Source of the DNA: a virus
Length of the DNA: 37,690 nucleotides
IMG/VR virus record: IMGVR_UViG_3300024999_000230
Span: 1 to 37,690 of that record
Strand: one strand, 5' to 3'
Below, in pieces: positions 7,116 to 24,526 of this stretch (its first letter is position 1; every line of letters begins with the position of its first letter). The translations under genes were made by a program, and so were the position numbers. The notes beneath the pieces are model-generated. The model did not search any database, was not told the origin of the DNA, and saw nothing but the letters and a program-made list of their open reading frames with translations.

Positions 7116-7445
7116 TTATTTCTTTTCTAATTTATCAATCAATCTCCCAATTGCTGGCTTAAAAAATATCTCAATCCGCTCTCTAGTAAAAAATTCTCTA
7201 ATATCTTCTGGTAAATTATTAACTTTAAGCATGATGATATCAATTATTTCTATGATAAATAATGTTCTATCTTTTTTAGAGTTATATAATTTTATCAATT
7301 CATCAATAGTTTCTGAACCAATTTTAGATATTTTATTCCAACCATCTTCTGTGAACTTTCCATCACTAGATTTCACAAGTTTAATAATTTCTAGAACTGC
7401 CAATATAGATGTGATGACGAATAGTATATAAAATATGTAATCCAT
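7116..7445 (-). CDS. membrane-anchored hypothetical protein near lysis genes
   Basis: A 109-residue protein with a strong AAGGAGGG site. One hydrophobic segment at residues 3-22 is followed by a charged, helical, soluble domain, so it is likely anchored in the inner membrane with the C-terminus in the cytoplasm or outside. It is the last gene of the late minus-strand unit, immediately after the endolysin. A role in lysis timing (antiholin or spanin-like) is possible from position only; no family recognised. Confidence 0.6.
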   Translation of the reverse strand: MDYIFYILFVITSILAVLEIIKLVKSSDGKFTEDGWNKISKIGSETIDELIKLYNSKKDRTLFIIEIIDIIMLKVNNLPEDIREFFTRERIEIFFKPAIGRLIDKLEKK

Positions 7446-16421: not shown

Positions 16422-17030
16422 TTAACTATTTTTTACTATTTTAAAATAATTATCTAGAATATTATTTACGGCTTCACTACCAGTTCGTACGTTTCTAACT
16501 TTATTATTAGCGGTAGTGATATTTTCTATTCTACGTTGATGAATATATTTTATATGGCAAAAACTAACGTAACTAATATTGGTCTTTTTGGATAAATTTA
16601 AATTATTGAATGAATAGTTTAAATCGCCATAATCTTGAGGTACAGAAGTCAATGGTGCAATTAAAAACATCAAACCTTTTCTTGCTAAAACAATTCCAAA
16701 ATGATGTTCTTTTAATTCATGCCCAACACCTACTCCAAATTTAATATGAACCACATCGCCTATTAAAATTGGTTTCGGAACATTCTTTTGAGATACTTTG
16801 TTAATTCTTTCTTTTAATTTGTTTTTTATGGCTAAATCAGTTGTAGTATTTATTTGCTTCTTTAATTGAGATTCTTCTTGATGATTTTTATTCATCATTA
16901 TTTTATCATAAAACCAATCAACGGCAAATAAAGATTGTGATGTCTCAATATCTAACAATAATCCTTTAATAGTATTCACCTTACCATCTAAATGTTTTCT
17001 TGCTTCTTTATTTATCCTAGGTGTATCCAT
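16422..17030 (-). CDS. PemK/MazF-like toxin-fold protein
   Basis: A 202-residue protein with a GGAGGATG site. Residues 1-85 are a charged helical extension; residues about 88-170 match the PemK/MazF endoribonuclease fold (IGDVVHIKFG, then FGIVLARKG, then LIAPLTSVP). The Arg of the usual RPVLV strand is replaced (HHFGIVLA), so activity is uncertain. A typical small antitoxin gene is not seen next to it. It may be an orphan growth regulator or the enzyme of a longer fused type II system in which the N-terminal extension plays the antitoxin part. It is the leftmost gene of the island. Confidence 0.7.
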   Translation of the reverse strand: MDTPRINKEARKHLDGKVNTIKGLLLDIETSQSLFAVDWFYDKIMMNKNHQEESQLKKQINTTTDLAIKNKLKERINKVSQKNVPKPILIGDVVHIKFGVGVGHELKEHHFGIVLARKGLMFLIAPLTSVPQDYGDLNYSFNNLNLSKKTNISYVSFCHIKYIHQRRIENITTANNKVRNVRTGSEAVNNILDNYFKIVKNS

Positions 17031-17107
17031 ATATTCTCATCCTCCACAAAATACTTCTCACATTATAACATATTTTGGAGGATTGTGGGAGGGATAGGAA
17101 ATTCTTT

Positions 17108-17183
17108 TGGTCTGAGTAGCATGACTTGAATCTACGACCACTTGATCCCAAATCAAGCAATCTTCCATTTAAAATATATCCAG
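17108..17183 (-). tRNA. degenerate tRNA-Pro (anticodon TGG)
   Basis: Exactly 76 bases with an encoded CCA and every position in canonical register: T8, A14, G18-G19, A21, T33, anticodon TGG, G37, T54-T55-C56, A58. The anticodon stem CTTGA/TCAAG is perfect, with loop TTTGGGA. The acceptor stem has 6 of 7 pairs (A5.C68 mismatched). The D stem (TTTT/GATT) and T stem (GTAGA/CATGC) have two mismatches each. It is therefore a decayed or highly divergent proline tRNA on the minus strand; I favour a pseudogene. Confidence 0.6.
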
Positions 17184-17202
17184 ATAATTTGGAAAAAAAG
17201 TA

Positions 17203-17232
17203 TTGCTATAAAAGAAATGTTTATTGTAAGAT
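17203..17232 (+). promoter_or_regulatory. promoter of toxin RNA I
   Basis: TTGCTA (17203-17208), an 18-base spacer and TAAGAT (17227-17232) give a plausible sigma-A promoter. Transcription would start near 17239 and cover the leader hairpin, the peptide and the terminator at 17446. Confidence 0.5.
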
Positions 17233-17260
17233 ATATATAGTCGAATAAGTGTTTGCGTGA

Positions 17261-17279
17261 CCTCTCTAAGTTTGAGAGG
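17261..17279 (+). promoter_or_regulatory. leader hairpin sequestering the toxin ribosome site
   Basis: CCTCTC (17261-17266) pairs with GAGAGG (17274-17279), and the second arm overlaps the AGGAGG ribosome site (17277-17282). This mirrors the upstream helix that hides the Fst start in Enterococcus par, keeping the toxin untranslated until processed. Confidence 0.65.
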
Positions 17280-17287
17280 AGGTGATG

Positions 17288-17303
17288 AACTTGGTCAACA
17301 ATC
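17288..17303 (+). repeat. direct repeat DR1 over toxin start
   Basis: AACTTGGTCAACAATC spans the toxin start codon TTG. An identical 16-bp copy lies at 17459-17474, transcribed in the opposite direction into the antisense RNA, so the two RNAs share 16 complementary bases here. Confidence 0.85.
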
Positions 17304-17407
17304 AGACGAAAAATGATTTAAAAGCACTTATGAAAACAGCTTGGATAGGGTTAAAAGAAATACTTACTGTATTGGCATTACTTCATGACATATTTCCAAA
17401 ATCTTAA
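17291..17407 (+). CDS. candidate type I toxin peptide
   Basis: A 38-residue peptide read from TTG 17291, 8 bases after AGGAGG; the ATG at 17285 is only 2 bases from the site and is less likely. A polar N-terminus (NNQTKND) precedes a hydrophobic amphipathic segment (AWIGLKEILTVLALLHDIF) and a short polar end. It does not obviously match Fst, but gene layout does: a bidirectional terminator, an antisense promoter and a repeat covering the start codon follow (see neighbouring entries). Membrane action is inferred from hydrophobicity. The peptide family is not recognised. Confidence 0.65.
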   Translation: MVNNQTKNDLKALMKTAWIGLKEILTVLALLHDIFPKS

Positions 17408-17413
17408 CAAGCG

Positions 17414-17446
17414 AAAAACCCAGAATGTACAAGATTCTGGGTTTTT
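17414..17446. terminator. bidirectional terminator of the type I locus
   Basis: AAAAACCCAGAAT (17414-17426) pairs perfectly with ATTCTGGGTTTTT (17434-17446), loop 7 bases. TTTTTCTTTTT follows on the plus strand and TTTTTCGC on the minus strand, so both converging RNAs end here and share the stem-loop as a second pairing site. Confidence 0.9.
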
Positions 17447-17458
17447 CTTTTTGTAATA

Positions 17459-17474
17459 AACTTGGTCAACAATC
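17459..17474 (-). repeat. direct repeat DR2 in the antisense RNA
   Basis: Second copy of AACTTGGTCAACAATC. Because RNA II runs leftward through it, it becomes complementary to DR1 around the toxin start codon. Confidence 0.85.
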
Positions 17475-17494
17475 GTTTATTGTTTGTAGTCAAT

Positions 17495-17524
17495 ATTCTA
17501 CCACATTGAATTCTAAATATACAA
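17495..17524 (-). promoter_or_regulatory. promoter of antisense RNA II
   Basis: On the minus strand: TTGTAT (17524-17519), 18-base spacer, and an extended -10 TGGTAGAAT ending at 17495. The extended -10 suggests strong constitutive expression, as needed for a labile antitoxin RNA. Start predicted near 17488. Confidence 0.65.
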
Positions 17525-17657
17525 GAACTAAAATTCGTTTTATAGGAACAATATTTCATTTTATAGGTAATTTGTTACGTTTTTCACTACTTTTATTTCG
17601 TTTTCGATAGTTTTGCTGGTGCTGGAGGAGTTTCAATATAAGCTTAAAATAAAAGTT

Positions 17658-18200
17658 TTATTGGGAATTGTGTGTGATATTTATGCCAGAAGCAACTTGC
17701 TCTTGAGCTTCATTAATTTCTATATCAATAATTAAAGCCTTTTCTATTGTTAAAACATCTGGAAAAATTAATTTATTACCTTTTCTTTGAAGAGATAAAA
17801 CTTTTTTAGCTTTCGATATAATTTCCTTATCAAAAATTCCATTTACTTTTACAGGAGTATTTGAATTTTTATCTATGTATTCATTTTGTATATATTTAGG
17901 AATAACTGGACACATGTTTTGAATCAAAAACGCTTTAGCATGTCCTAAAATTTCTCCAAAAATAATTGTATCACATTTACCATAACGAGTAATTTTATCA
18001 TTGTAGATTTTGCGATACTTTAACACTTTTGAAGAAAACGGAATCATCCAATAAACATTGGTTTTATTATCTAAGAAAGAATAAAAACATGGTCTATCGT
18101 GTATCTCGCCGTTTATTTTTTCACTATTGCGCATTAAATTTTCATCTGGAAAATCAATAAAATAATCATCAGTTAAGAAATAAAATTTACCTAAATCCAT
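17658..18200 (-). CDS. type III toxin (ToxN/TenpN/CptN-like endoribonuclease)
   Basis: A 180-residue protein from ATG 18200; a longer frame to 18233 starts inside the terminator stem and is rejected. Signature features of type III toxins are visible: an N-terminal KFYFLTDDYF strand, RPCFYSF, the core WMIPFSSKVLKY with the Ser/Lys region expected to carry catalysis, then FGEILGHAKAFLIQNMCPVIPKYI. I recall this pattern from TenpN/CptN-type proteins, which cut RNA and are held inactive by pseudoknot RNA repeats. The repeats and terminator directly upstream make the assignment firm; which of the three subfamilies it belongs to is open. Expected role: plasmid-like maintenance or abortive infection against other phages. 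Confidence 0.85.
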   Translation of the reverse strand: MDLGKFYFLTDDYFIDFPDENLMRNSEKINGEIHDRPCFYSFLDNKTNVYWMIPFSSKVLKYRKIYNDKITRYGKCDTIIFGEILGHAKAFLIQNMCPVIPKYIQNEYIDKNSNTPVKVNGIFDKEIISKAKKVLSLQRKGNKLIFPDVLTIEKALIIDIEINEAQEQVASGINITHNSQ

Positions 18201-18219
18201 AATACCCTCACTTAATTTT

Positions 18220-18248
18220 AAAGCTCTATCCAATGAAGATAGAGCTTT
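18220..18248 (-). terminator. terminator between antitoxin repeats and toxin
   Basis: AAAGCTCTATC (18220-18230) pairs perfectly over 11 bp with GATAGAGCTTT (18238-18248). In type III systems such a leaky terminator separates the repeat RNA from the toxin gene and sets the antitoxin excess. The toxin start is 20 bases further on. Confidence 0.85.
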
Positions 18249-18250
18249 AA

Positions 18251-18383
18251 AAAAACATTTGAACTCGACCTCTTGATTAGTCGCATATCGAGTAGCGACA
18301 AATATTTGCGCTCGACCTTATTTTAGTTGTATATCGAGTAACAACAAACATTTGATTTATTAAAGGTAGAATGAGCTATCTTT
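18251..18383 (-). ncRNA. type III antitoxin RNA with pseudoknot repeats
   Basis: Two tandem repeats of 46-47 bases (18309-18354 and 18262-18308) plus a partial third (18251-18261). Each unit holds an H-type pseudoknot. In unit 1, GTTGT pairs ACAAC and CTCGA pairs TCGAG, interleaved. In unit 2, GTCGC pairs GCGAC with the same CTCGA/TCGAG. The first stem changes in both arms between units (two compensatory pairs), so pairing is conserved. Processed units would wrap and inhibit the toxin. Confidence 0.88.
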
Positions 18384-18389
18384 AATAAA

Positions 18390-18398
18390 ATTATACCA
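18390..18398 (-). promoter_or_regulatory. extended -10 promoter of the antitoxin RNA
   Basis: TGGTATAAT on the minus strand (18398-18390) is a consensus extended -10 box. No good -35 is seen, which is acceptable with TGn-TATAAT. Start predicted near 18383, just before the repeats. Confidence 0.65.
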
Positions 18399-18420
18399 TG
18401 CATTAAAACTCTCATTTACG

Positions 18421-18602
18421 GCTGAGACACACCGAGCATTAAATAATTTAAATTATTTAAAATTGTAAGACAACAGATTGGATATAAATACCACCAATCA
18501 CGGTGCGTCTTGGCTATTTAGAGTCCCCAAGCGGAATAGATGGTTATCTTATACATCTACCACAAACCCCATGTCGTTTGTGCGACCATTAACTATGTCA
18601 TT
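18421..18602 (-). ncRNA. structured non-coding RNA candidate
   Basis: About 180 bases read leftward from a near-perfect promoter, with no reading frame of note. Stems in order: CACAAA/TTTGTG (18582-18561), TAGATG/CATCTA (18559-18537), then a 14-position helix GCCAAGACGCACCG with CGGTGTGTCTCAGC (18514-18501 with 18434-18421; one mismatch, two G-U). That helix encloses GATTGG/CCAATC (18499-18476) and a palindrome AAATAATTTAAATTATTT (18458-18441). The stems are richer in G+C than surrounding DNA. No clear terminator precedes the antitoxin promoter, so it could also lead into the type III operon. RNA class not recognised. Confidence 0.6.
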
Positions 18603-18608
18603 AATTTA

Positions 18609-18636
18609 ATTATACTACCCCTTGTGGTATTGTCAA
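18609..18636 (-). promoter_or_regulatory. consensus sigma-A promoter
   Basis: TTGACA (18636-18631), 16-base spacer, TATAAT (18614-18609) on the minus strand: both hexamers are perfect. It drives leftward transcription into the structured RNA, with start near 18602. Confidence 0.8.
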
Positions 18637-18710
18637 GACTTATTCAAGATAAAATGTAAAATATTTTCAATTATGTAAATAGGGATATTGATACTTGAGG
18701 TTTGTTGGTA

Positions 18711-18742
18711 TTTGGTGAATACCTATTGTGATATTCACCAAA
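18711..18742 (-). terminator. hairpin after antirepressor A
   Basis: TTTGGTGAAT (18711-18720) pairs with ATTCACCAAA (18733-18742), 10 bp. It lies just after the antirepressor stop. The following T-run is weak, so it could be an operator instead. Confidence 0.55.
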
Positions 18743-18750
18743 ATGTATTA

Positions 18751-19569
18751 TTATATAGCTATAGATTTTTTGTTGAGGGCTAAACTGTTGACGCAGAAGC
18801 CTTTTTCTTTTAGTAATTTTAGCATAAACTCTAATCCTTTAGCTGTAACCAAGCACTGACAACCATTGTACTCATAATTTCCTCTAATAAAATGAATTTC
18901 TCTAACCGTAAAATATTCACTATCACAAAATCTTTGATACGGTAAATTGTCAGACATTAAGATGTCGTTTTGCCGTAAAAATCTAAATAGCTTATTGCGT
19001 CCAATTTTTAATACTTTAGCACACTCGTTCATTGTTTGAGCATTCTTAGCACTTAAAAAATCATCATATCCTTCAGCTTTGGGAAGAAGCACTTTGTTTT
19101 GTTCTTCAATCTTTTCTTTCTCCTCGACTACTGTAAGTAATTGTATTAGTGCTTCTTTGTAGGTAGTCGGTAAATTATGTTGTGGTTGCTGAATTTGTTT
19201 TGCTTTAAAATATACATTCACTAATTGTCTTTGTACTTCCCATGCTAAATCATCTTGTAAACTTTTTACTAACATTAAATATCCTGATTCAGTGATTAAG
19301 TAAAATGAGAAGTTTGGACTATTGTTCAACTTTGTAAAATTTACTAAGTTAGCCTGTGCCAAGGCTTTGCGTCCATTATTACCTTTGAAATTAAAATAAT
19401 CTATACCTTCAACAAAGTGCTTTTTATGATTACAAAAATTTCTATAAGATATTCCTTCTGGTCTTCGATGAAGCATATCGATATCTTCAAAAGTTACAAC
19501 TCTGGTGTTATTGTATTCCTTAATGTTGACATCTTGATTATTAATTTGGACTACAGATAAATTATTCAT
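18751..19569 (-). CDS. phage antirepressor, ORF6N + KilAC domains (cassette A)
   Basis: A 272-residue protein from ATG 19569; the start overlaps the stop of the previous gene, so translation is coupled. Residues about 12-100 resemble the ORF6N domain of KilA-type proteins (VVTFEDID, then an FxKGIDYF-like HFVEGIDYFNF). A charged helix covers about 140-165. Residues about 165-265 are the antirepressor KilAC domain (NECAKVLKIGRNKLFRFLR, then YFTVREI and TAKGLEFMLKLL). Such proteins bind repressors or DNA and promote induction. The last ~15 residues are almost identical to the cassette B paralogue although the N-terminal domains are unrelated: modular swap. Confidence 0.88.
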   Translation of the reverse strand: MNNLSVVQINNQDVNIKEYNNTRVVTFEDIDMLHRRPEGISYRNFCNHKKHFVEGIDYFNFKGNNGRKALAQANLVNFTKLNNSPNFSFYLITESGYLMLVKSLQDDLAWEVQRQLVNVYFKAKQIQQPQHNLPTTYKEALIQLLTVVEEKEKIEEQNKVLLPKAEGYDDFLSAKNAQTMNECAKVLKIGRNKLFRFLRQNDILMSDNLPYQRFCDSEYFTVREIHFIRGNYEYNGCQCLVTAKGLEFMLKLLKEKGFCVNSLALNKKSIAI

Positions 19570-19870
19570 GATCAACGTCCCCCTGTAAATTGATTTCCAA
19601 TCCATTCTTCAGGAATATATGAGTATCTTTAAAATCGGATATTCTGTCATCTTGAACAATACAGGTTATGGCTGATTTTTTGATATTGAAATCACTTTCG
19701 TTATTATTATCAAAAAATGTGATATTGTTTTCATCCTGCCATACATTAAAGCCAGTTATTACTTGTAAGAAGTTTATATCTCCTTTAATGTCTACACAAA
19801 CTGATTTGCCTTCTAATTTGATGAAATCATTTTCTAACTCATTGATAGTTATTTCTTTTACTTTACTCAC
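19562..19870 (-). CDS. antirepressor-partner protein (cassette A)
   Basis: A 102-residue acidic protein starting with GTG at 19870 behind a strong AGGAGGG site. It is paralogous to 24215-24526: same length, same opening (KEITINELEN), shared VWQDEN/IWQDEN and an identical-type end (LEINLQ.DVD.E). No domain recognised. In both cassettes it lies directly before the antirepressor with an 8-base overlap, suggesting a partner or regulator of that protein. Confidence 0.75.
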   Translation of the reverse strand: MSKVKEITINELENDFIKLEGKSVCVDIKGDINFLQVITGFNVWQDENNITFFDNNNESDFNIKKSAITCIVQDDRISDFKDTHIFLKNGLEINLQGDVDHE

Positions 19871-23421: not shown

Positions 23422-24222
23422 CTATATAGCTACATTGTTTTTGTTGAGGGCTAAACTGTTGACGCAGAAGCCTTTTTCTTTTAGCAAATTCTTCAAAAAA
23501 TCTAATCCTTTTGGCTTGATGAAGGTTTGAGTGCCATTAAAATAATATTGTCCACGAAGTATGCTAACCTCCTTTACTAAGAAATAATCATTATTTAAGT
23601 ACTTCTGATATGGAACATTGTTATTCATGAGAATTTTTTCCCTTCTTAATAAAGAATATAATGAATTGCGTCCGATCCCGAAGCACTTAGCCACCTCACC
23701 AAAGTTTTGAAAATTATGAGCGTCAATTAGTATATCATACCCTTCAGCTTTGGGAATAAGTACTTTATTTTGCTCCTCTAATTTTTCATTTTTCTCAATT
23801 GTAGTAAGTAACTGAACTAATGCTTCTTTATAGGTAATTGGTAAATTGAATTGTTGAGTTAATTTTAATTCACCTTTTCTTAATCCTTTTAGTACATCTC
23901 TTACCCATTTTCTAAACTGCTTTGCTTTTTCTGTTTTGGCTAGAAGAGTTACTTCATATATGCCATCTTCAGTGAAAACTCTTGTTTTCCTTGATACTTC
24001 ACGATTACCTTCAACTACATTCAATTTGTGGGTACTTGAAAATTCATTATTCTTCAAATATTCATTTCTGTTTAAGATGTTTTCAATACCACTCTTACTA
24101 GAATAACCTAATACTTCTGCTAATTGTATAATACTCATAAAAATATCATCATTATTATTGCTCCAAAAATCACAAGTTGTATTTTCGAACTTTTCGCTTT
24201 TAAATAATATTAAATTATTCAT
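23422..24222 (-). CDS. phage antirepressor, BRO-N + KilAC domains (cassette B)
   Basis: A 266-residue protein with a GGAGG site, overlapping the preceding stop by 8 bases as in cassette A. Residues about 15-110 match the BRO-N fold (IIQLAEVLGYSSKSG, FTEDGIYEVTLLAK, AKQFRKWVRDVL). The C-terminal KilAC domain (about 160-255) is paralogous to that of cassette A: shared LPKAEGY/IPKAEGY, GRNKLF/GRNSLY and an almost identical tail (LLKEKGFCVNSLALNK). So the N-terminal DNA/repressor-binding domain differs while the C-terminal domain is shared. Confidence 0.9.
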   Translation of the reverse strand: MNNLILFKSEKFENTTCDFWSNNNDDIFMSIIQLAEVLGYSSKSGIENILNRNEYLKNNEFSSTHKLNVVEGNREVSRKTRVFTEDGIYEVTLLAKTEKAKQFRKWVRDVLKGLRKGELKLTQQFNLPITYKEALVQLLTTIEKNEKLEEQNKVLIPKAEGYDILIDAHNFQNFGEVAKCFGIGRNSLYSLLRREKILMNNNVPYQKYLNNDYFLVKEVSILRGQYYFNGTQTFIKPKGLDFLKNLLKEKGFCVNSLALNKNNVAI

Positions 24223-24526
24223 TATCTACGTCCTCCTGCAAATTTATTTCTAATCCATTTCTCAGGAATATGTTGGCTGTTTTAATACTTGATATTCTTT
24301 CATCTTGAACAATGCAAACAATGTCTTGCTTCTGAATACCAACTTCACTTTCGTCATTACAATCACATAAAGCAATTTTATTTTCATCCTGCCAAATATC
24401 AAAATCATTGACTATCTTCAAAAAGCTTATACTTCCCCTTACGTCTATACTAACTGTCTTACCTTCTGATGTTTTAAATTCATTCTCAAACTCATTAATA
24501 CTTATTTCTTTTATTTCTCTAGACAT
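24215..24526 (-). CDS. antirepressor-partner protein (cassette B)
   Basis: A 103-residue paralogue of 19562-19870 with a perfect GGAGG site. Both share the opening (KEI.INE.EN), GK.V..D..G.I, the W-Q-D-E-N motif, the CIVQD.RIS phrase and the LEINLQ end. Differences are spread along the length, in contrast to the near-identical upstream DNA. Function unknown. Confidence 0.75.
   Translation of the reverse strand: MSREIKEISINEFENEFKTSEGKTVSIDVRGSISFLKIVNDFDIWQDENKIALCDCNDESEVGIQKQDIVCIVQDERISSIKTANIFLRNGLEINLQEDVDNE

Follow-up and report, generated by a model that had tools for sequence, protein, structure and literature searches.

The virus record analyzed here carries a folded stretch of about 200 nt ahead of the antitoxin CptI, and this stretch is lacking in the other CptIN copies examined. 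The window, by which we mean the whole 37,690-base IMG/VR virus record, holds this segment at 18400-18602, on the minus strand, between a perfect promoter (P1) and the CptI repeats. We see about an even chance that the segment serves a CptIN operon carried by the phage as an extra, structured, noncanonical 5' leader on its antitoxin transcript. This is the simpler reading, because the corresponding promoter of a sister phage serves CptI directly and no convincing terminator stands before CptI. The features are collected in Table 1.

Table 1. Positions of the segment's features and of their surroundings in the window
Feature	Position	Strand	Basis or remarks
Antirepressor gene	18751-19605		upstream of segment
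Left anchor of cargo slot	18631-18708	minus	conserved DNA upstream of promoter, running into TTGACA
Promoter P1, TTGACA-N16-TATAAT	18609-18636	minus	exact 12/12; homologous promoter drives CptI directly in sister phage
Leader hairpin 1 (CACAAAC/GTTTGTG, 7 bp)	18561-18582	minus	MFE fold
Leader hairpin 2 (GTAGATG/CATCTAT, 7 bp)	18536-18560	minus	MFE fold
Structured core, 123 nt	18405-18527	minus	outer helix, ten-pair long-range helix, three enclosed hairpins
Long-range helix of core, ten pairs	18425-18434/18501-18510	minus	contiguous pairs
Hairpins within core	18476-18499, 18462-18474, 18439-18460	minus	MFE
Second, extended -10 (TGGTATAAT)	18390-18398	minus	without good -35; ~34 nt before CptI repeats
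CptI antitoxin, two 46-nt pseudoknot repeats	18252-18355	minus	repeat period, CptI similarity, H-type pseudoknots
Perfect 15-bp stem between CptI and CptN	18216-18252	minus	inverted repeat; place of type III attenuating terminator
CptN toxin, ribonuclease family, 180 aa	17658-18200	minus	ATG at 18200
Right anchor of cargo slot	17035-17092	minus	promoter-like DNA before next gene; 88-91% identical, four related phage records

The phage and its CptIN operon

The window probably represents one fragment of a large phage genome, since a 139-kb phage record (L092, L096) overlaps it at 99.9-100% and records of 66, 154, and 349 kb (L093-L095) match it more distantly. The 139-kb record represents the sister phage (IMGVR_UViG_3300025030_000046; L092/L114), which is ~99.9% identical to the window up to 18748 and diverges beyond. 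A cassette that encodes a protein of 102/103 aa and, after it, an antirepressor bearing a KilA-C domain is duplicated within the window (18751-19870 and 23422-24526); the two antirepressors differ in their N-terminal domains (ORF6N vs. Bro-N).

Downstream of the segment, the operon is recognizable as a phage-borne CptIN type III toxin-antitoxin system, with a CptN family toxin gene and tandem pseudoknot repeats upstream of it. The toxin matches NCBIfam NF047359 above its cutoff (E 1.1e-59) as well as the solved CptN structure (PDB 4rmo, E 2.9e-20). The CptI repeats are up to 94% identical, over ~104 nt, to the CptI of dozens of loci, with similarity beginning at 18355, and the stem energies of their two pseudoknots are -14.1 and -8.9. 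The stem that separates CptI from CptN is perfect, yet the terminator scan did not list it. The operon resembles the CptIN system of Eubacterium rectale (PDB 4RMO; PMC4627078) in its CptN family toxin, in the pair of 46-nt pseudoknot repeats that make up CptI, and in the terminator-like stem that parts antitoxin from toxin. It differs in having 250 rather than ~21 nt from the strong promoter to the repeats, an interval that holds the structured segment, and in adding a second, extended -10 beside the repeats.

In the published account, type III operons have a single promoter, followed by the antitoxin repeats, a terminator, and the toxin (PMC5086642). The loci gathered for comparison were 80 CptIN loci in bacterial and archaeal genomes, ten in viral records, six of which were recovered twice, and three on plasmids. 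Among the 51 other CptIN loci with a promoter of at least 10/12, the -10 and the repeats lie 1-112 nt apart (median ~21), compared with 250 nt in the window; in the sister phage the CptI repeats begin ~56 nt after the -10. The length of this gap, together with the direct link between promoter and CptI in the sister phage, points to an extra structured segment of ~200 nt before the antitoxin.

Promoters ahead of CptI

The first-pass annotation had reported a near-perfect TTGACA-TATAAT promoter of the sigma-A type with a 16-nt spacer, and such a promoter is indeed present: it lies on the minus strand at 18636-18609, and the window has no other exact 12/12 match, against 0.03 expected by chance (shuffles). 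Two promoter-like sites precede CptI, the perfect P1 at 250 nt and the extended -10 at ~34 nt. The latter lies at roughly the usual promoter-to-repeat distance of other CptIN loci and is likely the proximal CptI promoter. The terminator scan found no convincing terminator between the segment and the CptI repeats, so transcription from P1 should enter CptI. The earlier suggestion that the structure reads into a type III antitoxin accords with this result, the antitoxin being CptI.

The cargo slot

The left anchor comprises 78 bp that are 91% identical to positions 7185-7265 of the sister phage, where they occur as a single copy in 139 kb. The promoter that follows in the sister phage, TTGACA-16-TATAATTAAATT, is identical to that of the window in both boxes and in six bases beyond, and it leads directly into a different CptIN, whose CptN is 43% identical to the window's. 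At the other side, the promoter region of the next gene is conserved in all five records. Compared across the phage records, the two anchors behave like the borders of a slot for cargo, and modules have clearly been exchanged between them. The two cassettes thus have in common their phage locus, a homologous promoter, the 78 bp upstream, and their gene order, but the sister phage carries another CptIN and lacks the leader segment, for which neither its 139 kb nor the 349-kb relative contains a match.

Several further observations concern this slot, which spans 17035-18748 in the window and which in the sister phage contains another CptIN, with another gene after it, between conserved promoter regions. 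At 17282-17447 the window carries a 41-aa hydrophobic ORF on the plus strand, equipped with a good Shine-Dalgarno sequence (AGGAGGTG) and with a hairpin that forms a strong terminator; the other strand has two occurrences of GATTGTTGACCAAGTT, and the whole looks like a type I toxin-antitoxin pair. An element conserved between sister phages (L092 6895-7130 and L095 6690-6930), absent from the same locus of the window, includes a small membrane peptide resembling a type I toxin (MIMIVVTTVLCIIYYAECIVEKYIKIKNALHKRS, minus strand, read by eye). A weak tRNA match at 17111-17183 (minus strand; 30.9 bits, just above gathering, missed by ARAGORN) appears to be a degenerate tRNA or tRNA-like remnant. 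Finally, a 202-aa protein encoded at 16422-17030 (minus strand) has weak similarity to MazF-like PHROGs and may add another toxin to this part of the slot region.

Fold of the segment

The region had been described as free of genes, and we found in it just short, unsupported ORFs and no Rfam match. The fold of its core exceeds chance: for 18405-18527, a sub-region picked after looking, z reaches -3.8 in the minus-strand and -6.0 in the plus-strand direction, and in each case 0 of 200 shuffles equalled it. For the whole of 18400-18602 on the minus strand, z is -2.2, and 5 of 300 shuffles are equally stable. In the minimum free energy (MFE) structure of the minus strand, the core is closed by an outer helix (ACTCT/AGAGT plus G-U pairs).

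The first-pass annotation had described this architecture as a 13-of-14 long-range helix enclosing two hairpins and preceded by two more, a description that stands in part. The helix (18421-18434/18501-18514) does form 13 of 14 pairs, two of them G-U, on the untranscribed plus strand; on the transcribed strand it forms 12 of 14, with one G-U, a tandem mismatch, and ten contiguous pairs, and the bare helix is matched by 9 of 200 shuffles. Hairpins are enclosed as described, but the minus-strand MFE structure contains three. The two preceding hairpins are likewise predicted, at 7 bp each, but the 5' part that contains them is no more stable than shuffles (z = -0.6). Stability is about the same for both strands, so the signal agrees with a DNA inverted repeat as readily as with a selected RNA.

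Searches for homologues

The class of the structure had not been recognized at first pass, and the Rfam check proposed there returned nothing: with 18380-18640 alone, no covariance model of Rfam 15 matched at gathering or up to E 10. By blastn, no homologue was found in phages, plasmids, 91 loci, and 50 whole CptIN genomes, nor in 391 + 398 + 299 + 300 genomes sampled from Clostridia, Bacillota, Bacilli, and Negativicutes (with some overlap; more than 1,000 Bacillota genomes in all); the same search recovered the promoter anchor in the sister phage, and the searched genomes contained no positive control. The blastn matches to the segment were AT-rich palindromes and one stretch of a gene for a HAD hydrolase (L103; per-genome E 2.8e-4, among ~400 genomes), which was dismissed on reading. 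Exact patterns across IMG/VR yielded two chance 16-mers and no homologue, and a single-sequence covariance model (R1), run against 95 sources and 148 Clostridia genomes, matched the window alone. Nor was the segment found in the ~100 CptIN loci examined, so that it is known from one record among the collections searched.

Candidate identities were also considered for the segment and dropped. A tRNA, an integron attC site, and a TPP-like CTGAGA motif were abandoned on reading or for want of a match, as was a trp-like leader peptide (MVAQTTWGLW), which has no ribosome-binding site.

Discussion

If the segment is a 5' leader of CptI, P1 would be the promoter of the phage's cargo slot, and ~200 nt of structured sequence would have come to sit between it and the CptI repeats in this phage. 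We infer that transcription from P1 would then yield one RNA of leader and CptI repeats, continuing into CptN by read-through of the terminator-like stem, while the second, extended -10 may also give CptI a proximal start, possibly as a back-up. CptN processes CptI, cutting the precursor at repeat boundaries (PMC4627078), and this cutting of its own antitoxin precursor would presumably detach the leader where the first repeat is reached. Any regulatory effect of the leader would most likely act on the antitoxin precursor, by altering its level, timing, or stability. Several points weigh against a leader. CptI may in truth be transcribed from the second -10, with P1 serving a separate RNA; the structural signal is equal or stronger on the untranscribed strand, as for any DNA inverted repeat; and because the segment is found in one record alone, neither conservation nor covariation supports a function.

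Somewhat unlikely, in our estimation, is that the segment is structured DNA without present function, either flank of a donor locus or a small palindromic element carried along in the CptIN exchange. The uniqueness of the segment and its place in a recombining slot make hitchhiking of this kind possible: the exchange of modules between conserved anchors is clear, all relatives and ~100 CptIN loci lack the segment, the two strands fold with nearly equal stability, and the ends of the fold (ACTCT.../...AGAGT) resemble imperfect terminal inverted repeats. A mobile palindromic element, however, would sit poorly with a single copy, no second having been found in the window phage, the related phages, or the genomes searched, and with flanks in which no target-site duplication was seen by eye. 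The position of the segment, exactly between an intact promoter and the antitoxin, also speaks against passive carriage.

An independent small RNA of ~200 nt, transcribed from P1 as its own promoter and acting in trans while CptI uses just the proximal extended -10, we consider unlikely. The perfection of P1 and the presence of a -10 belonging to CptI, at the usual distance from the repeats, make such an RNA possible, and the compact, closed fold would suit it. Yet no terminator marks the end of the segment, P1 is homologous to the promoter that drives CptI in the sister phage, and no homologue was recovered from the collections searched. A scan for RNA-RNA targets also gave nothing convincing, with only one modest candidate, the start region of 16125- (z = -3.0, uncorrected for 38 targets). 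The first-pass annotation had named an immunity-type RNA beside the independent small RNA, and the analysis supports neither of them and rejects neither.

More doubtful is a structured RNA module fitted by the phage between a distal strong promoter and the repeats, where it would sense a condition or be released by the toxin as a separate regulator, under two-promoter control.

It is highly improbable that the relevant RNA lies on the plus strand, as a structured 5' UTR preceding a hydrophobic peptide of 39 aa (18540-18659, plus strand), with the P1 transcript as the antisense antitoxin of a type I module. The stronger z and better helix pairing on the plus strand, the hydrophobic ORF just downstream, and the type I-like modules noticed by eye close by, as well as in the sister phages, would all accord with such a module. 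The absence of an upstream plus-strand promoter and the interruption of the reading frame in the sister phage, where the DNA of its 3' end is nonetheless conserved, make it unlikely, and the ribosome-binding site is weak. Scarcely credible is a remnant of a second type III antitoxin, with the 5' part as an H-type pseudoknot (GTCG CACAAA CGAC ... TTTGTG): its GTCG/CGAC stem also occurs in the first CptI repeat of the sister phage, but its stem energy of -6.8 does not surpass that of pseudoknots formed by chance within this stretch (-7.5) and falls short of those of the true CptI repeats, and the pseudoknot is not repeated.

Phage-borne noncoding RNA beside a defense or toxin gene has a counterpart in the AbiF-associated RNA of Clostridioides difficile phages (PMC12373285). 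The segment in the window differs in having no Rfam match, even up to E 10, and in having CptN as the gene downstream.

Descriptions of type III operons present them as compact, their one promoter lying immediately ahead of the antitoxin repeats. The retention of a promoter and the addition of 200 nt of folded RNA before the antitoxin in a large phage, within a slot where near-identical phages exchange entire toxin modules, would show how modules of this kind are swapped and re-wired. If the leader is functional, it would represent a new layer of control for an RNA antitoxin; if it is not, the locus would be a clean example of promoter-anchored cargo exchange.
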